Positions 435-22,947 of a DNA stretch of 23,498 nucleotides are shown here, in pieces. Where the stretch lies: positions 1 to 23,498 of the forward strand of contig JAFXWI010000057.1 of assembly GCA_017542915.1 (NCBI GenBank). Direction: 5' to 3'. The notes below the pieces were generated by a model. That model did no database searches, was not told the origin of the DNA, and worked only from the letters and a program-made list of their open reading frames with translations. Position 1 is the stretch's first letter. The number at the start of each line of letters is the position of its first letter. Position numbers and translations under genes: made by a program. This DNA comes from Paludibacteraceae bacterium (GTDB lineage Bacteria; Bacteroidota; Bacteroidia; Bacteroidales; Paludibacteraceae).

Positions 435-644
435 TCAAATACCTAAAGTTTGAAACATTTCTTCGGCTGAAGACCATGTACGCACACGTCCTGCCTCAAT
501 ATCATCCAATGCCCGGTCTAAAGCGTTTTTCTTCTCTATCTCGAAGCCAAGTGCTTTTACGACTGCTTTAAAACGCTTCGCCTCAACGCGCGGTACATGT
601 ATCGTCATACGCTCATACTGATTTGCTGCTACTGTTGCTTGCAT
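435..644 (-). CDS. Antitoxin-like protein, 69 aa, of a decayed TA pair
   Basis: A small charged protein with MTIHVP near the N-terminus (a likely DNA-binding beta strand), a helical middle (residues 18-50) and ALDDIEAGRVRTWSSAEEM near the end. This is the layout of the short antitoxins paired with YafQ/RelE toxins in Bacteroidales, whose C-terminal segment wraps the toxin. An internal Met at residue 13 could also start translation, but a strong Shine-Dalgarno sequence 5 nt before the first ATG favours 644. It has a full Bacteroidetes promoter upstream and a hairpin terminator downstream. Only a stub of the toxin gene remains beside it, so it is an orphan antitoxin that may still bind DNA or neutralise toxins encoded elsewhere. 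Function is inferred from size, motif layout and the adjacent remnant. Confidence 0.7.
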   Translation of the reverse strand: MQATVAANQYERMTIHVPRVEAKRFKAVVKALGFEIEKKNALDRALDDIEAGRVRTWSSAEEMFQTLGI

Positions 645-673: not shown

Positions 674-705
674 CAAAATTACTGCTTTTTTTTGAAATAT
701 GCAAA
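674..705 (-). promoter_or_regulatory. Bacteroidetes promoter of the antitoxin gene
   Basis: On the minus strand TTTG (702-705) is followed after 20 nt by TAATTTTG (674-681), a perfect match to the -33/-7 pattern. It closely resembles the promoter of the upstream ncRNA at 1634-1665: both share TTTGC at -33 and GCAGTA at the start of the -7 box. Confidence 0.8.
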
Positions 706-823: not shown

Positions 824-1150
824 AAAAAGAGCGCGAAGTTATTCTTCACGCTCCCTATCCGCTCGTAAGGTTCTAAATCCGTAAGATACAGCAAATGTCC
901 AATGTGGGATACTTGATACAAACTATAACATGCGCACACGAGCACATACTATACTTATAAAGTACCCAATAGGACACCTATTGGCTGTTCTTGGGCTGGT
1001 TTTAGAAAGTTGCGAAGTTTCCGGGAGCCGCCAATAACATCAATAAATGTCAATTATGGTATTCAATCACTTTGGTATTTGTGATTTCGTGTTTTTCTTG
1101 GTTTTGGGAACACCAGTGAATGCCACTTATGCTCCGATGTTTTTCAAATC
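824..1150 (-). ncRNA. Structured non-coding RNA, copy A (about 327 nt)
   Basis: This minus-strand transcription unit has a perfect promoter (1156-1187) and an intrinsic terminator (829-853) and contains no convincing reading frame. It is homologous to copy B (1290-1628): they share an exact 18-nt block (1004-1021 here) with similar sequence around it, and the distance from that block to the terminator differs by 1 nt. Long-range pairing is possible between 1001-1007 and 871-877 (perfect 7 bp), which would close a large rod. A small hairpin around a UUAUUG loop lies just 5' of the shared block, with stem ACAU/AUGU. In copy B the corresponding stem is CGUU/AACG, a compensatory pattern. The ends are predicted from the promoter and terminator. 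The rod shape recalls 6S RNA, but I could not identify the 6S core and the RNA is longer. Family unknown. Confidence 0.65.
829..853 (-). terminator. Intrinsic terminator of ncRNA copy A
   Basis: Read on the minus strand, GAGCGTGAAG - AATAA - CTTCGCGCTC forms a 10-bp stem followed by TTTTTG. The single non-Watson-Crick position is a U-G pair in minus-strand RNA but would be a C/A mismatch in plus-strand RNA, which supports minus-strand transcription. Confidence 0.75.
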
Positions 1151-1155
1151 GACTG

Positions 1156-1187
1156 CAAAATTATACAAAATTTTCCAATTATGCAAA
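1156..1187 (-). promoter_or_regulatory. Promoter of ncRNA copy A
   Basis: On the minus strand TTTG (1184-1187), 20 nt, then TAATTTTG (1156-1163): a perfect Bacteroidetes promoter. It predicts a start near 1150. Confidence 0.75.
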
Positions 1188-1289
1188 CTACAGTTTACAA
1201 GTTTCAGCTATTTTGTCATTATTTGCACAAAAAACGTCAATTTAGTGCCCTTTTCAAGGTTCGTACGTAGTCGATTCATCCGGGACATA

Positions 1290-1628
1290 AAGAAAGCGTG
1301 AAGTTCACTTGTTCTTCACGCTCCCTTAGGCCTTCGCAATGCCTGTAACCAGTAGAAAAACAACCGAAGTCCACGCCGAATATGTAAAGCAAATACAATA
1401 CGCCTACGCGTAGTGTACTCAGGATTTACACATCCCGAGGACATTCATTGGTTATTGCTCGGACTGATTACGAGAAAGTTGCGAAGTTTCAGGAAGTCAC
1501 AAACAACGTTCAATAAACGCCTTTTCAATATGTCTAATTCTCCACCCTTTCCCAGAGACACTTCCCCTCAGCGTGGATCAGATTACGCATACGTATACGC
1601 ACATGCGTGGTATAGCAATACGCATAAT
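1290..1628 (-). ncRNA. Structured non-coding RNA, copy B (about 339 nt)
   Basis: A second minus-strand unit with the same layout as copy A. The shared 18-nt block is at 1473-1490. A closing rod is well supported here: 1479-1486 pair perfectly with 1332-1339 (8 bp), and 1464-1471 pair with 1345-1352 (8 bp including one G-U that works only in minus-strand RNA). The 5' end starts with its own long hairpin (1618-1629 with 1581-1593), absent in that form from copy A, so the 5' third has diverged while the rod and terminator are kept. A plus-strand ORF across 1413-1676 has no recognisable features and I treat it as spurious. No protein gene lies between the promoter and the terminator, so a leader role is unlikely and a free RNA is more likely. 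Family unknown. Confidence 0.65.
1295..1322 (-). terminator. Intrinsic terminator of ncRNA copy B
   Basis: AGCGTGAAG and CTTCACGCT form a perfect 9-bp stem with a 10-nt loop. On the minus strand it is followed by TTCTTTATG. It is homologous to the terminator of copy A but has a longer loop. Confidence 0.7.
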
Positions 1629-1633
1629 CGGTA

Positions 1634-1665
1634 CAAAAATACTGCTTTTCCTTCATATACGCAAA
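1634..1665 (-). promoter_or_regulatory. Promoter of ncRNA copy B
   Basis: On the minus strand TTTG (1662-1665), 20 nt, then TATTTTTG (1634-1641), a perfect Bacteroidetes promoter. It predicts a start near 1628, which places the first strong hairpin at the very 5' end of the RNA. Confidence 0.75.
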
Positions 1666-12755: not shown

Positions 12756-15700
12756 TTATTTCAGCTCGACAGCCTGTCCGGTAACGTTATAAACCTTACC
12801 ATTGAGCATGATATAAACGTGGTTATCGCGGATGAACTTGATCGCCTTGGTATCCTTGCCTGCGTTCGCGCCCTCGATATCCGTCGGATAGCTCTTATGA
12901 GAGATCGAGAGGTTGTCGATAGCAGCGGGTACACCGTTGGAGACGCTACCATCGTTGATCCAAACGAATACTACGCGATACAATCCGGTTACAGGAACGA
13001 CTACGGACTTGTGCTGCGACTCCTCTTGGTTAACCAGAGCGGCATTCTCGTCGATAGCGATCCAGCCTGCAGGCAGGTACTCTTCCGTCAGACCCTCAGG
13101 AGCAACACCTGCTGTCAGCTCTACATCCGCCGGAACGAGGGCTGCACGCATGAAGTCGTTTGCGCCATCCTCTTCGTCGTACTCACCTACGCACTTCCAA
13201 TCGTACGAAATGGTATAGGTACCGCTATACTCGAAGTTGAAGAGTTTGGTAGCGAACGAAACGGAAGCGGCCTCATTGTCGTAGCCATAGGTAGTACCAT
13301 CGTTAGAAACGAAGAGCTCACCATTGATTACCCAGCCGTTTGCATTGTTAGCGAATTTCCATCCGGCAGCGTCTGAGAAGTCAGTCGAGTACGGCAGGGC
13401 CTGGATGTCCTCAATCGTCGAGAAGGCAACAGAAACGAGCTTGCTATTCTCATCACCGCAGTTGTTGCGCAGGTAGAATACATATGCGGTAGCCTCGTCG
13501 AGGTTATCCAGAACGAGCGGGTTAGTAGTAGCCTGAGCAAATGCTGTCGGAGCTTCGTTAGAAGATGCGAGAACAACTGCGTATTCCCAGTTAGCACCCT
13601 CTACCTCATCCCACGAGAAGGTAGCACCAACTTTCGTGATATCCGATACCTCAAGGTGCGTAGCCCACATACAAGACGGAGCTTGACCCGGAACGTAGTT
13701 GATCGTCATCTTCGGCAGGAAGTTACGCTGGGTCATGTTGTTGCCCGTACCGTAACCACCGATAGAAGCGCCGGTCGTGTTCTTACCATACCAGCTGCAG
13801 CCAACATACGAGCCTGCAGCCGTCTGCTTGAAGCCGATGAGCAGGTTGTCACCAGTGTACTGGAACTGCTCACTGAGGGTTACTACCATCTTGTTGTTCA
13901 CGATAGAGAGGTTACCGGCAATCATAACTTGCGTCAGGCTGTTCCAGTCAACCAATGCACCGAGGGTAGCGTCCTCCGTAGTAGTCATGTAAACCTCGAA
14001 CTCAGCAGCACCCCAGTCAATCGAAGCGTTGGAAGAGTAGAAGGTCAACTCGGTGATCGAATCCCAGAGGATCTCTTGCAGACTCTCTGCCGGAACGATG
14101 AACTGACTTGCCGTATTACCCTCGTCTACGTAAGTACCATAGATAGGTACGTAGCTATTGGTCTGGGCACCATCGTTTACGACGATCGAGTAGATATTGG
14201 TCGGCAGGAAGGAGATCACAGCGCTGTAAGCACTCTCACCATCCTCCTCACCGCAAACTGCTTTCACGCGAGCGTAGTAAGTCTGCTCTGCTGTCAGACC
14301 AGTCAGGTATATTACCGACTCGGTTACGTTCAGTACAACCGAGTCTAACATATTGCTATTGAGACTGTACTCAACCTGATATTCCTGTGCTTCGCCTGCG
14401 TTCCACGTGAGGGTTGCGATCGAACCGTCACCCGGAGTGAGCTCTGCTGCCAAACCGGTCGGAGCAGGACAAGCGATAGTAGTCGTGAAGGACTGCTTAG
14501 CGGTCCATACGCTTACACCGTCCGTCTCACCGCAGTTCGCACGTACGTATACATAATAGGTATGCGACGGCAGGAGGTTCGTCAGCGTGTACGGATTCTC
14601 CGTTACGTCAAGGATCGTACTCAGCGTATCAGGGTTGAATCCGGCAATGGTGTCGAGAGCGATCTGCCATGCAGCAGCGTCAGACTCCCAAGCCAAGGTT
14701 GCACTGTGAGCAAATACATCCGAGATGGTCAAACCGGTCGGTTTGATACAAGTCGGGATAGCATCGATACGCACATTGTCAATGTGGAGGTTGTTATCAC
14801 CGTTGGACACCGTGGACTCGCCGTAGAAGCCGATCATGATCTGCTCGCCTGCATAAGCGGTCAGGTCGATTGCAACCTCTTCACCGGCATTGCTGATAGC
14901 GTCATATACATACTCCGAACCGCTGTTGTTCCACTCGCGCAGGAGAGCCCAAGTAGCACCACCGTCGGTAGAAATCAGCACCGCGAACTTATCATCCGGC
15001 TGACCACCTGCTGTCGGAGCTGCCGAGCTGCCGTAAGTATAAACCGTCAGCGCCAGATCGAAGGTCAGCTGGTTATTGCCAATACTGTAGATAGCCGGAG
15101 TCATCAACCAGTGCTTGCGGGTCGTACCATAGATATTGATACGTGCATGGCTGTCAAAGACGTTATTGTTCGTACCAAATGCCCAAATCGAACCGGTAGT
15201 GAGTGCTTCACCATCGAGCACGTCAGCCATCAGACCTTGCGCCTCACTCCAGTCAGCCGGGATAGTCGATGCAGCGAACGGCTCGTAGAACGGAGCTACA
15301 TAAGCGGTCTTCACATTGATGTAAGACGACCACATATCCGCCTCAGCACAGCTTACCTGAACCTGTACGTAGTACTTGGTCGAAGGAGCGAGATCGGTCA
15401 AGGTATATGGCATCTCAGCTTCCTCGATCAGCGTCCAGTCTTGTGCATTGGTACTGTAACGGAGGTTGAAGGAGGACTGTCCATAGGTATTCCAACTGAT
15501 CACTGCCGAGTTCATCGTGATATCCGAAGCTACGAGGTTATCCGGCATCTGGCAATCACTGGCGGTATGGAACGTAAAGAGATCGCTCCACTCACCAAAT
15601 CCTTCGTCACCGCAGTTCGCACGTACGTACACGTTATATAAGGTGTCGGACAGCAGTTCTGACAATGCGTACGGTTTAACCGCTACATCGTAGATATCTG

Positions 15701-18700
15701 CCTCCTCTACATCTACCAAACTGAAGTTCGGATCAGCCGAGTAAACGATCTGCCAAGCAGATGCTTTCGAGCTCCAATCCAAGATAGCAGAAGCAGCGGT
15801 GATCTCCGAAACGGCAATATTCTTCACCTTACCACAAGCGGGCTGCAGCGTAATAGCCACATCGTCCAGATAGAGATAAGCGTCACCATTACCATAGTTG
15901 CTGGTACCCTTGAAATAGATGATTACGGTATCTCCGGTGTAGTCCGCGAGATCGAACTCATACGGCGTCCAAGAGGAGATGGAGGTGAGATTATTCTCGA
16001 GCGATGTTCTGGTCTGACCACCGTCATTCGAGATAAAGATCTCAGCTGCACCACCAGTAGGATTCTTCCAACGGAAAGTCAATGTAGCATCCGCTGTCAG
16101 AGCTATTTCAGGAGTAGCAAGGATATTGGTATTTCCGTTACCATTCGAGTACGAGTTAAAGCGTACGCAGGTATCTGCAGCTGACGCGTAGTAGTTCCAC
16201 TTATAGGCTTCAGAAGTCGTAGTACCTTCCGAGTTATCCCAACAGAGAGGTATTCCGCTTGTCAGGGCACTGAAATTATCAGCAAACGGCAGTTCGTATA
16301 CGCCACACGCGGTAGCGAACTGAACAGCACTGCTGTAAACAGAGGACTCGGTGTCGCCACATACAGCTGCTACACGTGCGTCATACAGCGTAGCTGCCTC
16401 CAGGCCGCTTAACTCATACGGATTCGTATTTGCCGAAACAGTGATCCACTCTTCGTCAGAAGCTTTCTTGTACTGGAGTGTCCAAGCGGTCTCTGCGTTC
16501 TGCGCCGTCCACCGGAGTACTACAGAGGTCGAAGTAGCCAACGAATCGATTGCCATCAGACCTGTCGGCTCCAGACAGCTCGGGATCTCCTCTACTACGA
16601 TATCATCGAGGTAGAGACCACGAGTGCTAACCGACGAATTAGCAGCTAACATCTTGAAGGCGATATACTGACCTTCTCCGGTATAGGCATTCAAGAGAAC
16701 CTCGAACGGTGCATAGCTCGTAGAAGCAGGCTTAATAGTCTGAATAGCTACGAAGGTAGCCGCATCGCTCGGATCGGTCATGATACCTACCGTGATGGAA
16801 TCACCGCTATAATAACTGCTGTACTTACGCGCATTGAACTTGATACGCAATCCGTTCAGACCCTCCATCTGAGGCAGGATAGCATACTGATCCTGCGGGT
16901 CATAATCGGTATAAGAGCTGTAAGAAGAATAGAACTTGAGCGAGTTATTCGGGCTGTTAGCATACGAAGTGCCATCATATACCGTCGGATAATAGCTATA
17001 GGAACTATAGGTACAGGTATTGATATAACTCCAGCAGATCGGCAGGGTATGCGCATAGTTCGAAGCTACAGCAAGGCTGTCAAAGCCCTCCGCATACGGG
17101 TAGGTGGTGATAGCCAGACACTCGGTCAAGAAGCTGATAGCAGAGGTGTACTCGGAGATCTCCTCGTCACCGCACTTAGCAGCCACTCTCACCTCATAAG
17201 CTGTAGCAGACTCCAGACCCTCAAGGGTGTACGGATGAACCGTTGCAGCCTCGTCAAGCGTGATCCACTCTTCGTCTGCCGCTTTCTTGTACTGGATCAT
17301 CCAAGCCGCCTCATTGCCTTGCGGATTCCACTCAAGGGTTACCGAAGTAGCCTCCGTAGCAGTAACTACCAACTCTAATGGGCGCTCACACGACGGGATA
17401 GCCGCGATCTTCACATTATCCACATGGAGGTTGTTGTCTCCACCGGAAACACTCGACTCGCCGTAGAAAGCGAAGATCACATTCTTGCCGGCCAAGTTGT
17501 CATCAAGAACGATCTTGATCTCCTGACCGGTAGTAGCGATGTCGTCATAGATATACTCAGAGCCGGTATTGTTCCATTCGCGCAGAATAGACCAGCTCTC
17601 GCCATTATCGAGTGAGTAGAGAACGACAAATCGGTCATCGGCTTGACTTCCTTTGGTAACAGCTGCTGCTGTACCCGAGTATTTCGTCAACGCGAGGTCG
17701 AAAGTCAGCTGAATACCTGCTTGCAGTTCGATAGCCGGTGTTTGCAGCCACTTATTGCAGGTAGTACCATAGATATTGACGTACGCATGACGGTCAAACA
17801 CACCATTGGAGGTACCGATTGTCCATCCTGAACCGGATTGACGCTGAGCCACACCGGCAGAGATGCTATCGAGCCAGCCTGTATATTGACTCCAATCAGC
17901 AGGAGTACCGGTAGCCGTGAAATTCTCCAAGAACGGAACACCGTAAGCGGTGGTGAAGAATACCGAAGTAGTAAACGGACTCTTCGCCTCTTCGCTGGAC
18001 GGATCGCACCAAGCTGCTACTTGTGCCTCATAGGTCGTTTTAGCCTCGAGGTTCTCGATCTTGAGCGTAGTGTCAGAAGCTAAGACAGGCGTATTCCATT
18101 CTTGGTCAGCCGCTTTCTTATATCGTACGATCCAAGTATCCTCGCTGCCCTGTGCTTTCCAAGAGAGAACAGCAGCGTTCGATTTCAAACTGTCTGCTAC
18201 GACTACCAATGCGGTAGGCTCCAGACAACCCGGGATCTCCTCCACTACTACATCATCGATAAGCGCTGATGCCTCCAACTGAGAAGCAGCCAACATCTTG
18301 ATAGCCACGAACTTACCATCACCCGTATAAGCGGTGAACGGAATAATGAACTGGCTATATACATTGCTGGTCAACTCAATGGTATCGAGAGCTACAAAGT
18401 TAGCGGAATCAGCCGCAGCAGGCATTACGCCTACTACGAGTCGTGCTCCCTCGATGCTGGTGGAGAGCTCATAGTCATTACAAGCCATGAATTTGAGACG
18501 CATATTATTCAAGCTGATCAACTCAGGCAGGACAACATACTCATCCACCGGATTATCATTGGCCTTCGAGTAGAAATAGAGGAACTTGGTACCGCTATAA
18601 GCTTCCGCCGGATAGTTTGCCAATACACCCGGATAACCGCTTTCGTCCTGAATAGCGCTCCAGCAGAGGAGGTTACCCTCAAAGTCTTCGCTGACCTCAG

Positions 18701-21700
18701 CTACAGGAACGCACTCGGTAACGAAGAAGATCGAACTGCTGTAATCGCCGATAGTCTCCTCATCGCACTGAGTAGCCACTTGTGCCTCATAGATAGTAGC
18801 CGGATCCAGTCCCTCAAGGAGTTTGAAGGTATCGGCAGCTACCGGCACTACAGCCTGCCACTCTTCTGCACCTTCCTCACGGTAGCGGATCACCCAATTA
18901 GTCTCAGGACTAAGCGGCGTCCAAGCCAGCACAGCCGAGTTAGCCGTAATCAGGCTGTCAATAGCGTGCAGGGCTTTCGGAGTAGCGCATGCAGGAGCAG
19001 CACCGTGCTTGAAGTCAATAGCGGTCTTCGGCAAGAAGGATTGTACGCCGGTCGATCCAGAGTTACCGTACACGTACGCAGCCGAACCGGAAGGTGCAGA
19101 AACACCATACCAATACGTATTTGCATACGAACCGCTGGTAAGCTGATTAAAGGCAACCAAGAGGTTTCCACCCTTATATTGATACAGCGAATCGAGAGCT
19201 ACATACATCTGGTTGTCAGCGATAGAAAGCGCCTTATTCGACATTACCTTATGAAGCGAGCTCAGATCCACTACACCACTCATCGTAGTATAGTCCACTT
19301 CAGCCATATAGACATCGAAACGAGCTGCACCAAAATCTTTCGATGCAGGCGAGCTGGTAAAGAAGGTCAGTGCCTGAATAGAATCCCACTGGATATTCTC
19401 CAATTGAGCAGCCGGAATAATGAACTGACCCTTGGTCGTTTGATCCACATAGTATCCATAGAAAGGAACATACTCGTTGGTAGTAGTACCATTGTTCAAG
19501 ACAATCTGGAACGGGTTGAGGGTCTTGAAAGCGACAGAAACGCTCTCGCTCAATCCGTCTGCCACACAGTTCTTACGGAGGTAGAATACATAGTTTGTAT
19601 TGCTCTCCAGATCGCTCAAGGTAAGCGAGTTCTGCTCTACCGCAATGAACTGATCGTCTGCCGGTTCGGGCTCGGAAGCCGGAACACAAGCATATACCCA
19701 TTTCATACCGTCCGTTGCCTCGTTCCAATCGAAAGAAGCGCCGGTGAAGGTGATGTTCGAAACGGTCAAACCTGCCGGTCTCGGGCAAAGGATACGACTG
19801 ATCTTGATGTTATCGATAGCACCCGGAGGATTCGTACCGGAACTATTGTCATTACGCCAAGCAATGATCACTTTGTAGTTGCCTACGTTCTCGATGTTGA
19901 TCTCTGCCAATTGGCTCTGCCATGTATCACTGCCGACCAGCTGCGAACCGCCGTCCAACGCAATCCATCCCTCCGGCAAGCTGCTGGAGCTGAAATCGGT
20001 CGGGGCCGTGGTAGCAGCCTCGGGATCAACAGAAATCGGAGCCAACGCTACACGCATGTAGTCCGAATAAGACGAACCTTTACACAACCAGTCGAACGAG
20101 AACGAATACATGCCCGTTTCCTCGAAATAGAAGGTCTTGGTAGCATATACCATAGCAGGAGCATAAGCGCCGTAGGTACCGAAGGTATAAGCATGCGTCA
20201 AACCATGATCATTAGATACATAGAGCGCGTGCGTACCAGTCTTAGCAACTGCGGTACCGTATGCCCATTGGTTCGGCAGATCACCGTTGATGAGCAACCA
20301 TCCGTTGCCATCCTCGAAGGTGCAGCTATACGGCAGAGCAGCCGGAGTCTGGAGGGTCTTGAAGGTCTTCATGAGCGGCTCACTCTTCTCGGTCTCGTCA
20401 CAAGCGCGGCGAACGAAGAAGATATAATCGGTTGTCTCAGCCAATTCGGTCAGATCAACGTACATATCGCCGGTCGAACCGGTATAATCGCTCGCAGCCG
20501 GAGTGAAGTCAGCTGCAGGATTAGCTACGTAGCCGTACTCCCACTGACCGTCCTCGTCTGCATCCCAAGAGATAGAAGCCGTAGAACCGGTCACTTCACC
20601 AATGGTGATACTGAGCGGACGCTCACAAGCCGGAATCAGGTCAATAGCTACATTCGAGATATGGAGGTTGTTGTCGCCGTTAGCCTCGGTGGACTCACCG
20701 TAGAACGCCAATAGGATGCTCTGACCGGCATATTCGCTCAGGTCAAACTTAATGGTCTGACCCTCGGTTTTGATACCATCAAACGAAGAACCTTGACCTT
20801 GGTTACCCCAAGTACCTAATGCCTCCCACTCTTCTCCACCGTTGGTAGAGATAAGAACGATGAACATATCGTCATTCTGCTCACCGGCGGTAACGGCTGT
20901 AGGAGTAGAACCGGCTTTGGTAGTCAAAGCGAGGTCGAAGGTCAATTGATAGCCAGCCGACATCTCGATTACCGGACTTACTAACCAGTATTTGGTCGAA
21001 TCCTTGATATTCAGATAGAGGTGCTCATTGCTAAAGACACCATTCTGTGTACCTACACTCCATCCCTTCGTGGCAGCTACGAGCGATGCACCACTTTGCT
21101 GAACTTCCTCCAAGAGTGCCTCATAACGTTTCCACTCACCCGGCATAGCCGTGGTGTCAAAGCTCTGAGCGAACGGCACAACAGCTGCGGTCTTGGCAAA
21201 AATAGATTTACCATAGTCGGTATAGTCCTCAGCGGTACATACAGCTGCTACGCGGATCTCGTACTCCGTGAAAGCACTGAGACCGGTGATGGGGTACGGA
21301 TTAGCTGCGATATCGAGTGTGGTCCATACAGCCGTAGAATCAGCTGTCGGCTTGTATTGGAGACGCCAGTTCTCCTCGTTGCTGTTCGCTGTCCATGCTA
21401 CAGGCAGCGTAGAGCTCGTAGCCGCACCATCTACAGCGTGCAGAGCGGTCGGCTTCAAGCAAGTCGGGGTCTTCTCAATCACTACATCATCTACGTGGAT
21501 GTTGTTATCTCCACCTGCAACGGTGGACTCGCCGTAGAACGCCAAAAGAACCGTCTGACCGGCATAAGCGCTCAGGTCAATCGGCTCAACTTCTTCTCCT
21601 GCCACAGCGATATCGTTGTACACATAGGACGAACCGGTATTATTCCACTCACGCAGAATAGTCCAGTTAGCACCCTCATCAATCGAAGCCAAAACGATAA

Positions 21701-22751
21701 AACGGTCGTCCTGTTGTAGGGTCTTGTCAACCTCAACCAATGTACCCGAAAACTTGGTCAACGCCAAGTTAAAGTACATCTGGAAGCCCGGATCGTCCTC
21801 TTCCATTTCCGGAATAGGAATAGCCGGGGTCTGAAGCCACCTATAGCAACCGGTTCCATAAATGTTTGCGCGAGCGTGATTGTCAAAGACACCATTGTTT
21901 GAGCCGAAGGACCAAACAGAACTGCTGGTGCGAGTAGCAGATCCATCAGCTTGCAATTGACCTGACCAAACTGTCCATCCACTCGGTGCAGACGTACCAT
22001 TGAAATGCTCTGCGTACGGCAGACCAATCAGCGTGTTGAACGAAACGGCTTTCCAACCGCTGGTGTTCTCACCACAGATAGCCTGTACCTGTACTTGATA
22101 AGCCGTGTTCGAAACGAGGCCTGTCAACTGATAGGAACCACCCGTTAGGTTCTTCAACAGCGTCCAGTCCGCATCAGAAGCGCCTTTGTACTGGAGGTTG
22201 TAAGCAGCAGCCGTACCGATCCAGTTGATCGTTGCGGAGTTCGACGTTACGTCGTTTGCCTCCACCGACTCCGGTTTGTCGCAAGTCTGACCTGCCGAAG
22301 CTTCCGTTGTAATGGTAGCTTCCCAACCGGCAGCCGTGGTAGAGCCATCCGAATGCCACTCAATGGTGAGCGTACCGGACTGAGCTACATAATCTACATT
22401 TGTAGTGATGGTTGCAGACGCACAGCCGGTCTGGAGTCTTCCAAGCAATTCGCCTTCCGTCGCATTGCCATCATAGATAAGCATGTAGTCCCAGTTGTAA
22501 CAACTGGATGAGGACTCCGTTGCAAATGACGAAAAGTTAATCGTAATACTTCCCGTACAAGTGAACGTAGCCGTGTAGCTTTGACTAGTGCCATAATCGG
22601 CACTTGGTCCGCCTGAATCATAAAAGGCGTAGGTGCTACCCGGAGTCAGCTCTTCTTCCATATTACCGGTTAAGGTAATAACTTCTTGAGCCTGTACCGT
22701 TGCCCATGTAGCAAAGAGCACCATGACCAAACAAAGTAATACTTTTCTCAT
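12756..22751 (-). CDS. Giant secreted mosaic adhesin, 3331 aa (CUB, 13 FN3, 11 jelly-roll modules)
   Basis: Residues 1-21 are a signal peptide. Residues about 25-150 are CUB-like (FYDSGGPSADYGTSQSY...LIYDGNATEGELLGRL). FN3 domains, each opening with Cys and carrying a second conserved Cys, start at 157, 431, 709, 989, 1255, 1509, 1788, 2059, 2306, 2400, 2668, 2761 and 3027. Between them are beta-sandwich modules of five types: A (IYGT...WLQTPAI...DNNLHVDNV) at about 240, 524, 1604 and 2483; B (PYSCTFEDG) at 804 and 3116; C (NEYVPFYGYYVD...FLPKTAIDF) at 1081 and 2852; D (AYTGDGKFVAIKMLAA) at 1346 and 1879; E at 2148. Types A, B and D resemble cleaved-adhesin/MAM jelly rolls. The tail (AIKFIRDNHVYIMLNGKVYNVTGQ) resembles Bacteroidales secreted-protein C-termini, so surface display through T9SS is inferred. 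No protease or glycosidase motif is seen. It has its own promoter and terminator. Confidence 0.8.
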   Translation of the reverse strand: MRKVLLCLVMVLFATWATVQAQEVITLTGNMEEELTPGSTYAFYDSGGPSADYGTSQSYTATFTCTGSITINFSSFATESSSSCYNWDYMLIYDGNATEGELLGRLQTGCASATITTNVDYVAQSGTLTIEWHSDGSTTAAGWEATITTEASAGQTCDKPESVEANDVTSNSATINWIGTAAAYNLQYKGASDADWTLLKNLTGGSYQLTGLVSNTAYQVQVQAICGENTSGWKAVSFNTLIGLPYAEHFNGTSAPSGWTVWSGQLQADGSATRTSSSVWSFGSNNGVFDNHARANIYGTGCYRWLQTPAIPIPEMEEDDPGFQMYFNLALTKFSGTLVEVDKTLQQDDRFIVLASIDEGANWTILREWNNTGSSYVYNDIAVAGEEVEPIDLSAYAGQTVLLAFYGESTVAGGDNNIHVDDVVIEKTPTCLKPTALHAVDGAATSSTLPVAWTANSNEENWRLQYKPTADSTAVWTTLDIAANPYPITGLSAFTEYEIRVAAVCTAEDYTDYGKSIFAKTAAVVPFAQSFDTTAMPGEWKRYEALLEEVQQSGASLVAATKGWSVGTQNGVFSNEHLYLNIKDSTKYWLVSPVIEMSAGYQLTFDLALTTKAGSTPTAVTAGEQNDDMFIVLISTNGGEEWEALGTWGNQGQGSSFDGIKTEGQTIKFDLSEYAGQSILLAFYGESTEANGDNNLHISNVAIDLIPACERPLSITIGEVTGSTASISWDADEDGQWEYGYVANPAADFTPAASDYTGSTGDMYVDLTELAETTDYIFFVRRACDETEKSEPLMKTFKTLQTPAALPYSCTFEDGNGWLLINGDLPNQWAYGTAVAKTGTHALYVSNDHGLTHAYTFGTYGAYAPAMVYATKTFYFEETGMYSFSFDWLCKGSSYSDYMRVALAPISVDPEAATTAPTDFSSSSLPEGWIALDGGSQLVGSDTWQSQLAEINIENVGNYKVIIAWRNDNSSGTNPPGAIDNIKISRILCPRPAGLTVSNITFTGASFDWNEATDGMKWVYACVPASEPEPADDQFIAVEQNSLTLSDLESNTNYVFYLRKNCVADGLSESVSVAFKTLNPFQIVLNNGTTTNEYVPFYGYYVDQTTKGQFIIPAAQLENIQWDSIQALTFFTSSPASKDFGAARFDVYMAEVDYTTMSGVVDLSSLHKVMSNKALSIADNQMYVALDSLYQYKGGNLLVAFNQLTSGSYANTYWYGVSAPSGSAAYVYGNSGSTGVQSFLPKTAIDFKHGAAPACATPKALHAIDSLITANSAVLAWTPLSPETNWVIRYREEGAEEWQAVVPVAADTFKLLEGLDPATIYEAQVATQCDEETIGDYSSSIFFVTECVPVAEVSEDFEGNLLCWSAIQDESGYPGVLANYPAEAYSGTKFLYFYSKANDNPVDEYVVLPELISLNNMRLKFMACNDYELSTSIEGARLVVGVMPAAADSANFVALDTIELTSNVYSQFIIPFTAYTGDGKFVAIKMLAASQLEASALIDDVVVEEIPGCLEPTALVVVADSLKSNAAVLSWKAQGSEDTWIVRYKKAADQEWNTPVLASDTTLKIENLEAKTTYEAQVAAWCDPSSEEAKSPFTTSVFFTTAYGVPFLENFTATGTPADWSQYTGWLDSISAGVAQRQSGSGWTIGTSNGVFDRHAYVNIYGTTCNKWLQTPAIELQAGIQLTFDLALTKYSGTAAAVTKGSQADDRFVVLYSLDNGESWSILREWNNTGSEYIYDDIATTGQEIKIVLDDNLAGKNVIFAFYGESSVSGGDNNLHVDNVKIAAIPSCERPLELVVTATEATSVTLEWNPQGNEAAWMIQYKKAADEEWITLDEAATVHPYTLEGLESATAYEVRVAAKCGDEEISEYTSAISFLTECLAITTYPYAEGFDSLAVASNYAHTLPICWSYINTCTYSSYSYYPTVYDGTSYANSPNNSLKFYSSYSSYTDYDPQDQYAILPQMEGLNGLRIKFNARKYSSYYSGDSITVGIMTDPSDAATFVAIQTIKPASTSYAPFEVLLNAYTGEGQYIAFKMLAANSSVSTRGLYLDDIVVEEIPSCLEPTGLMAIDSLATSTSVVLRWTAQNAETAWTLQYKKASDEEWITVSANTNPYELSGLEAATLYDARVAAVCGDTESSVYSSAVQFATACGVYELPFADNFSALTSGIPLCWDNSEGTTTSEAYKWNYYASAADTCVRFNSYSNGNGNTNILATPEIALTADATLTFRWKNPTGGAAEIFISNDGGQTRTSLENNLTSISSWTPYEFDLADYTGDTVIIYFKGTSNYGNGDAYLYLDDVAITLQPACGKVKNIAVSEITAASAILDWSSKASAWQIVYSADPNFSLVDVEEADIYDVAVKPYALSELLSDTLYNVYVRANCGDEGFGEWSDLFTFHTASDCQMPDNLVASDITMNSAVISWNTYGQSSFNLRYSTNAQDWTLIEEAEMPYTLTDLAPSTKYYVQVQVSCAEADMWSSYINVKTAYVAPFYEPFAASTIPADWSEAQGLMADVLDGEALTTGSIWAFGTNNNVFDSHARINIYGTTRKHWLMTPAIYSIGNNQLTFDLALTVYTYGSSAAPTAGGQPDDKFAVLISTDGGATWALLREWNNSGSEYVYDAISNAGEEVAIDLTAYAGEQIMIGFYGESTVSNGDNNLHIDNVRIDAIPTCIKPTGLTISDVFAHSATLAWESDAAAWQIALDTIAGFNPDTLSTILDVTENPYTLTNLLPSHTYYVYVRANCGETDGVSVWTAKQSFTTTIACPAPTGLAAELTPGDGSIATLTWNAGEAQEYQVEYSLNSNMLDSVVLNVTESVIYLTGLTAEQTYYARVKAVCGEEDGESAYSAVISFLPTNIYSIVVNDGAQTNSYVPIYGTYVDEGNTASQFIVPAESLQEILWDSITELTFYSSNASIDWGAAEFEVYMTTTEDATLGALVDWNSLTQVMIAGNLSIVNNKMVVTLSEQFQYTGDNLLIGFKQTAAGSYVGCSWYGKNTTGASIGGYGTGNNMTQRNFLPKMTINYVPGQAPSCMWATHLEVSDITKVGATFSWDEVEGANWEYAVVLASSNEAPTAFAQATTNPLVLDNLDEATAYVFYLRNNCGDENSKLVSVAFSTIEDIQALPYSTDFSDAAGWKFANNANGWVINGELFVSNDGTTYGYDNEAASVSFATKLFNFEYSGTYTISYDWKCVGEYDEEDGANDFMRAALVPADVELTAGVAPEGLTEEYLPAGWIAIDENAALVNQEESQHKSVVVPVTGLYRVVFVWINDGSVSNGVPAAIDNLSISHKSYPTDIEGANAGKDTKAIKFIRDNHVYIMLNGKVYNVTGQAVELK

Positions 22752-22828: not shown

Positions 22829-22860
22829 CAAAGGTACAAAAAAATTTCGATATGTGCAAA
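22829..22860 (-). promoter_or_regulatory. Promoter of the 10-kb adhesin gene
   Basis: On the minus strand TTTG (22857-22860), 20 nt, then TACCTTTG (22829-22836), a perfect Bacteroidetes promoter. It leaves an AT-rich leader of about 70 nt without a Shine-Dalgarno sequence, as is normal in this phylum. Confidence 0.85.
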
Positions 22861-22921
22861 TTTTTTGTTAAAAAATACCAAAATGATCCATTTTTGCAAA
22901 GTTTACATTACAAAATGAACA

Positions 22922-22947
22922 AAGAAAGCGCCCGAAAGCGCTTTCTT
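22922..22947 (-). terminator. Intrinsic terminator of the 129-aa gene
   Basis: AAGAAAGCGC and GCGCTTTCTT form a perfect 10-bp stem around a 6-nt loop, 34 nt past the stop codon. On the minus strand it ends in TTTCTTTGTTC. Between it and the stop lies a short direct repeat of TTCGTACATCG (22950-22976). Confidence 0.7.

Follow-up and report, generated by a model that had tools for sequence, protein, structure and literature searches.

The window, by which is meant the whole stretch of 23,498 nucleotides that was analysed, carries on its minus strand a tandem pair of units of about 330 nt each, unit B upstream and unit A downstream. Unit B (1289..1628) follows a promoter of the form TTTG-N20-TAttTTTG at 1634..1665, found by pattern matching, from which transcription would start near 1628. 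It ends in an intrinsic terminator, a hairpin with a T run at 1289..1322, where the window's clade also has a local hairpin, AGCGTGAAG/CTTCACGCT. Unit A (824..1150) has its promoter (TTTG-N20-TAatTTTG, likewise a pattern match) at 1156..1187 and its terminator, again a hairpin with a T run, at 824..853. The units share an exact 18-nt block (the 18-mer), at 1473..1490 in unit B and 1004..1021 in unit A; no other site in the window comes within 3 mismatches of it, and 100 shuffled sequences gave a mean of 0.02 matches and never two. A preliminary description had reported two head-to-tail minus-strand units with 20-nt promoter spacers, terminators and the shared block, and each of these lies where it was placed. 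The distance from block to terminator, given there as differing by 1 nt, is the same in both units when measured to the terminator hairpin. The units were also described as noncoding, which agrees with the open reading frames (ORFs): none of at least 60 aa overlaps them on the minus strand, and all such ORFs are on the plus strand.

Unit A is followed by a 69-aa ORF at 435-644 (-), which also follows unit A in the rumen genome RUG715; the ORF has no Pfam match and looks antitoxin-like by eye. Just upstream of the unit B promoter lies a G-rich tandem repeat (1732-1811, five copies of a 16-bp unit), and a long imperfect inverted repeat around TTTGCATGGCAAA..TTTGCCATGC is seen by eye at positions 1-75. 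The window also contains a 3331-aa ORF at 12756-22751 (-), in which nine fibronectin type III stretches and one match to CUB were identified; for the two ORFs beside it, of 1087 and 1072 aa, Pfam gave none.

Both units are predicted to fold stably (unit B, -118.9 kcal/mol, z -6.23; unit A, -99.6 kcal/mol, z -5.84), with none of 100 shuffles equally stable in either case. The architecture consists of a hairpin, P2, and a 5' hairpin region, P3, that pairs over a long range with the 3' domain through helices X, K and Y, which enclose a rod. In unit B, P2 (GGCGTT..AACGTT) occupies 1505..1521, and P2 is 89.6% paired in 77 relatives; it is the hairpin whose stem was noted earlier to differ between the units with its pairing kept (ACAU/AUGU versus CGUU/AACG). 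The 5' strand of helix K (1479..1486) lies within the 18-mer and pairs with 1332..1339, an assignment based on compensated K sequence classes in relatives. Helix Y joins 1464..1471 to 1345..1352 and helix X joins 1491..1497 to 1321..1327, both as judged from an alignment of 77 relatives and from comparison of own with swapped partners; the X 3' strand overlaps the terminator 5' arm by two bases. The rod, counted in the alignment of relatives, has its 5' arm at 1422..1456 and its 3' arm at 1359..1388, and in typical members the 3' arm is partly the terminator 5' arm as well. The K and Y pairings are the two unit B stems proposed in the preliminary description, and the rod-closing stem that it proposed for unit A (1001-1007/871-877) is also present. 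Unit A retains P2, P3, X, the rod and the terminator. Its K is imperfect, the 3' strand (TTACGAG, 862..868) pairing to 1010-1016 except for a single C-A mismatch, and its Y is shifted so that it draws on the end of the 18-mer.

For the 5' part, a covariance model (R1) was built from 48 sequences, unit B among them. Unit B scores 67.4 bits with this model, of which it is itself a training sequence, while unit A, outside the training set, scores 53.4 bits (E 4.8e-10). Unit B is thus a canonical member and unit A a diverged member of one family by both model and fold. Since A-type copies also occur at loci L021, L035, L020 and L065, unit A represents an old subtype. Two weaker matches in the window were set aside. 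One, at 22860-22944 (21.5 bits, E 0.003, filters off), contains a terminator-type hairpin followed by A/T-rich promoter sequence, lacks the 18-mer and was treated as chance; the other, a plus-strand match at 971-1074 (17.1 bits, E 0.028), coincides with part of unit A, for which the minus-strand match is the stronger.

A search of a genome collection (257 billion bases, both strands) with the 18-mer yielded at least 119 stretches, where arithmetic predicts about 7 by chance. Five matches without flanking family sequence (L016, L030, L047 and the viral matches L120 and L121) were dropped from all counts, and the flanks of the remaining stretches in view share a long conserved context. Among the matches listed, 80 titles are mostly those of Bacteroidales or families within Bacteroidales; L002, L023, L043 and L051 have Firmicutes-type titles, yet their sequence belongs to the family. 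Across the unit region the window is about 94% identical to the rumen genomes RUG715 and RUG454, both of which carry the same tandem pair. With R1 at E 0.01, 11 of the 12 genomes taken through loci contained 2 to 15 copies each, the unmatched twelfth being the source of a chance 18-mer, and Paraprevotella clara YIT 11840 contained eight (E up to 0.01). Draws of more than 40 genomes were searched with stricter filters, at which weak matches are lost; at E 0.001 the model matched 19 of 41 genomes in the taxonomic family of RUG715, 18 of 41 in that of Paraprevotella clara and 33 of 39 in that of genome G004, with up to 16 copies (centre genomes included in all three), as well as 16 of 197 genomes drawn evenly from the order, and at E 0.0001 it matched one of 247 drawn evenly from the phylum, namely RUG715. 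The search of other Bacteroidales genomes suggested in the preliminary description therefore finds the RNA in several Bacteroidales families, as named in record titles.

The preliminary description could match the units to no known family, and comparison with Rfam 15 gives the same answer for the core. At gathering scores there were no matches in the window and none in the loci of 10 relatives; a scan of 20 loci gave one, to the DUF805b RNA (RF02914), outside the core. Permissive scans returned only matches regarded as chance, among them MicC at 815-932 of the window (21.8 bits against a cut-off of 90) and mir-57 (14.5 bits against 44). A known RNA such as 6S RNA, which we take to be RF00013, that has diverged too far for the library is scarcely credible as an explanation: the units share with 6S RNA, including 6S-Flavo (RF01685), a free-standing size class and a rod-like fold, but the core has no match at gathering, permissive scans give only far-sub-threshold chance matches, and the leader RNA family sits before genes. 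DUF805b was found in the gap between terminator and ATG at L130 (2562-2596, -) and L135 (587-621, +) above gathering and at L142 (2617-2651, -) below it, with a second L130 match further downstream at 1069-1103. It differs from the family in being a 35-nt element outside the leader core, it occurs in three of six genomes searched, also away from leaders, and it has no match in the window.

Table 1 of Weinberg et al. 2010 (PMC2864571) lists candidate structured RNAs of Bacteroidales or Bacteroidetes, Bacteroidales-1 (RF01693) among them. The comparison covered the motifs in that table that carry Rfam numbers (so not, for example, Bacteroides-2), and none of these matches the window or the core in the relatives scanned. 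Full-text searches of a literature collection with few subscription papers found no description of such an RNA, which could stand as an unnamed candidate in a supplementary list. The literature covered includes PMC8040213, PMC2864571 and PMC7366714, and the terms looked for do not occur in PMC11109978. As far as compared, this is an uncatalogued structured RNA family.

Evidence for the fold comes from compensatory change. Alignment A1 comprises 77 of the 78 copies that passed thinning (82% identity) and a length limit; L108 was too short to be included. Over its seven helices (P2, P3, X, K, Y, C and the terminator), 93.0% of cells are paired and 34 of 51 pairs have changed on both sides, so that the covariation across homologues that the preliminary description proposed to look for is strong. 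There are 495 both-side-changed cells against 161.6 in shuffles, a number that none of 500 shuffles reached, and pairing falls to 35.4-44.9% in slid controls. The same seven helices contain 560 G-U cells against 131 A-C cells, consistent with the proposal, made earlier from G-U pairs, that the RNA is read from the minus strand. Rows of A1 were chosen for an exact 18-mer and TGCGAAG in the 3' half, and its seven invariant K pairs are uninformative there; K was tested separately on 61 copies found by R1. These came from RUG715 (12 of 12 copies), G238 (9 of 12), G256 (9 of 11), G253 (5 of 6), G004 (6 of 15), G305 (5 of 6), G005 (6 of 8), G254 (8 of 10) and G006 (1 of 4). An exact complement of at least 6 nt stands at the expected place in 58 of the 61, a count made without a shuffled control. 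The TTCGC type accounts for 26 of the 58, and the other 32 have different sequences, among them CTCGCA/TGCGAG, CTGGTA/TACCAG, CTGGAA/TTCCAG and TCCGGAAA/TTTCCGGA. The three misses are the RUG715 unit-A copy, a third RUG715 copy (L136) and L146. Support is weak for a GAAA/UUUC local hairpin around the K strand (58 copies; -2.00 kcal/mol for own partners against -1.17 for those of another copy), and no conclusion here depends on it.

The sequences of helices X and Y are private to each copy. When each strand was paired with its own partner or with that of another copy (95 copies, some closely related), energies were -11.9 against -3.0 kcal/mol for X and -10.6 against -2.9 for Y. Own-partner gains were smaller for P3 (-10.0 against -7.0), helix C (-17.6 against -14.1) and the rod (-32.0 against -24.3). 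The duplex energy of the whole 5' region is -47.2 with its own 3' region and -28.6 over 455 swapped pairs. The loops differ even between copies of one genome. The presence of many copies in a genome, before unrelated genes, would be expected of a mobile repeat in which a promoter and a folded RNA travel together and insert in front of genes; copies of one genome are strongly different in sequence with the pairing kept, and their direction and spacing relative to genes are fixed, which makes such a repeat highly improbable.

Gene context was counted on 163 distinct copies of 181 fetched, after removal of copies sharing a 60-mer; 7 of the 61 model-found copies were left out as identical to 18-mer copies or nearly so. 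In 142 of the 163, an ATG-initiated ORF of at least 60 aa begins no more than 320 nt from the terminator, at a median gap of 61 nt. Where an ORF of at least 90 aa is in view downstream (142 copies), the nearest is co-directional in 136 and opposite in 6; for the nearest upstream ORF the split is 57 to 40. Upstream of the RNA, the promoter -7 element is present in 142 of 158 copies (14.6 in shuffles, 22 on the other strand) at a median of 109 nt from the 18-mer, and the full promoter in 99 of 158 (1.5 in shuffles). In the gap between terminator and ATG, the -7 element is at chance level (6 of 142, 5.9 in shuffles) and a full promoter occurs only at L021, which belongs to the window's clade, and L096. 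Since the genes are co-directional, the gap is short and gap promoters are at chance, the family as a whole consists of gene leaders. The preliminary description saw "self-contained" noncoding RNA genes. The structured RNA stands, and for the window pair separate RNAs of about 330 nt may be literally right because the next gene there has its own full promoter; family-wide, the same context counts do not support self-containment. In a separate observation, a short hairpin, GCC-n-GGGGAGTC-n-GGC, immediately precedes the ATG in 37 of 142 copies (2.2 in shuffles; L019, L073 and L040 are examples), an excess that is partly post hoc in that the pattern was written after the sequences had been inspected. 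This hairpin may be a second regulatory element.

An alternative casts the units as trans-acting small RNAs, each transcribed from a promoter of its own to its own terminator, whose place before genes is incidental or a second role. By the definition of such RNAs (own promoter and terminator, no dependent gene), the window pair fits and most of the family does not. Attenuated leaders, too, release RNAs of this kind. Across the family the downstream gene shares the direction of the RNA in 136 of 142 copies, its short spacing is constant and it has no promoter of its own; the loops differ within one genome, leaving no shared seed beyond the conserved core. Trans-acting RNAs are on this evidence unlikely, and most probably the family is a riboswitch-like class of transcription-attenuating leaders.

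Attenuation is suggested by the sharing of one strand between two structures: part of the rod 3' arm doubles as the 5' arm of both the intrinsic terminator and helix C. Both the rod and the terminator pairings show compensatory change. The terminator is 98.1% paired over 77 rows, with both-side changes in four of its seven pairs. The rod together with P2 (27 pairs, 21 of them in the rod) is 86.1% paired and contains 63 both-side-changed cells against 30.4 in shuffles; further pair types (43 against 41.1) are not above shuffles, and the 16 pairs with both-side change were matched by 29 of 500 shuffles. Pairing is lower, 76.8%, in the part of the rod whose bases also belong to the terminator. 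Some changes extend over all three strands: columns 97-280-333 are GCG in 55 rows against AUA in 5, and UAU stands at columns 114-259-352 in each of the five rows with A at column 259, related rows not being independent events. In 19 rows, however, columns 113-260-351 carry CAU, a combination that preserves the terminator pair at the expense of the rod pair in this register.

When the 77 RNAs are folded without constraints, the best structures include 70% of rod pairs but 1% of terminator pairs; for transcripts cut before helix C closes, they include 91% of X-K-Y pairs. With the two states forced, the ON fold is lower in 36 of the 77 and the OFF fold in 41. Because the predicted ground state has the rod and lacks the terminator, termination would require that the rod fold be blocked or outrun. 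Pseudoknots are not modelled by the folding program, so X-K-Y may be present in either state; it could coexist with the terminator as a pseudoknot, and only rod and terminator need be mutually exclusive.

We infer the regulatory mechanism from covariation and position only. The RNA would be transcribed from its upstream promoter ahead of a co-directional gene about 60 nt beyond the terminator. If the rod has formed, the terminator could not close and RNA polymerase would read into the gene; if the rod is open, helix C and the terminator would close and transcription would stop. A putative small molecule or protein that recognises the conserved internal loops beside K would set the balance. A constitutive leader whose role is mRNA protection, mRNA processing or the slowing of polymerase, with an unregulated terminator-like hairpin, would agree with a predicted ground state that has no terminator and with targets that have no common pathway. 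Such a leader would have little need of a strand common to rod and terminator that changes three ways, which is superfluous in a purely protective fold, or of a terminator so fully paired and compensated, and it is judged quite unlikely. In kind of mechanism, the closest known systems are riboswitches and other terminator-based attenuators. Like them, the family stands between promoter and gene with a conserved folded domain, occurs in several copies per genome and has one arm common to the terminator and a helix that may compete with it. Unlike them, it has no Rfam class, it is large, it contains a long-range three-part helix with copy-private X and Y, its downstream genes are very diverse and any ligand is putative.

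The 142 downstream proteins fall into 102 clusters, 82 of them single and the largest of 13. Signal-like N-termini, by a crude rule, occur in 86 of 142 downstream proteins against 191 of 443 background ORFs. Pfam and PADLOC matches (85 plus 10 proteins scanned) include BspA repeats, Peptidase_C10, LytTR, CsgG, DUF6175, a HaeIII-type endonuclease, helicases, an EcoRI-type methylase and, in P. clara, a NusG-domain protein. Leaders stand directly before DNA methyltransferase, SNF2/DEAD-type helicase, NusG-domain and LytTR genes at L154, L140, L145, L034, L175 and L177, the L034 and L145 proteins clustering together. No metabolic theme was seen among the 72 Pfam families of the 85 proteins (E 0.01), nor a pathway shared by the targets that would name a ligand. 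A bolder proposal, held with rather less than even confidence, is that in Bacteroidales of gut and rumen a single common signal governs many genes unrelated to one another, with surface, defence and regulatory roles, through the copy-private long-range loop-to-loop helix, which would make this a new riboswitch-like class. The signal is perhaps a second messenger or a lineage-specific antitermination factor.

The window pair departs from the family pattern. Unit B leads only into the unit A promoter, while the window's clade has a promoter in the gap after unit A; in the window this is the pattern-matched promoter of the 69-aa ORF at 674..705 (-), which uncouples the ORF from unit A. With B leading only into A, and the ORF beyond A transcribed from a separate promoter, the window units are probably orphaned leaders that yield RNAs of about 330 nt. 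The distance from 18-mer to 18-mer is about 470 nt at L021 and L035, 553 nt at L065 and 1229 nt at L020. At L020 the interval between units B and A holds a ParE-like toxin gene and a 132-aa ORF that has no Pfam match (2267-2946, -), which puts a leader in front of what may be a toxin-antitoxin pair; downstream of unit A comes a DUF1016/YhcG nuclease gene. The most economical explanation is that the window's clade has lost genes that lay between the units. Taken together, it is probable that the two units are copies, B canonical and A diverged, of a new Bacteroidales family of structured leaders that would act as attenuators and that are here probably orphaned.

If this reading is true, the family represents a layer of gene control that no paper found by full-text search describes. 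The RNA is about 320 nt long, with 51 counted base pairs and 21 more in the rod, and is present in several Bacteroidales families. The occurrence of copies in a named strain, Paraprevotella clara YIT 11840, makes the mechanism directly testable. The targets include surface proteins, DNA-modification and restriction enzymes, and LytTR and NusG-like regulators, so that such control would touch both colonisation and phage defence.
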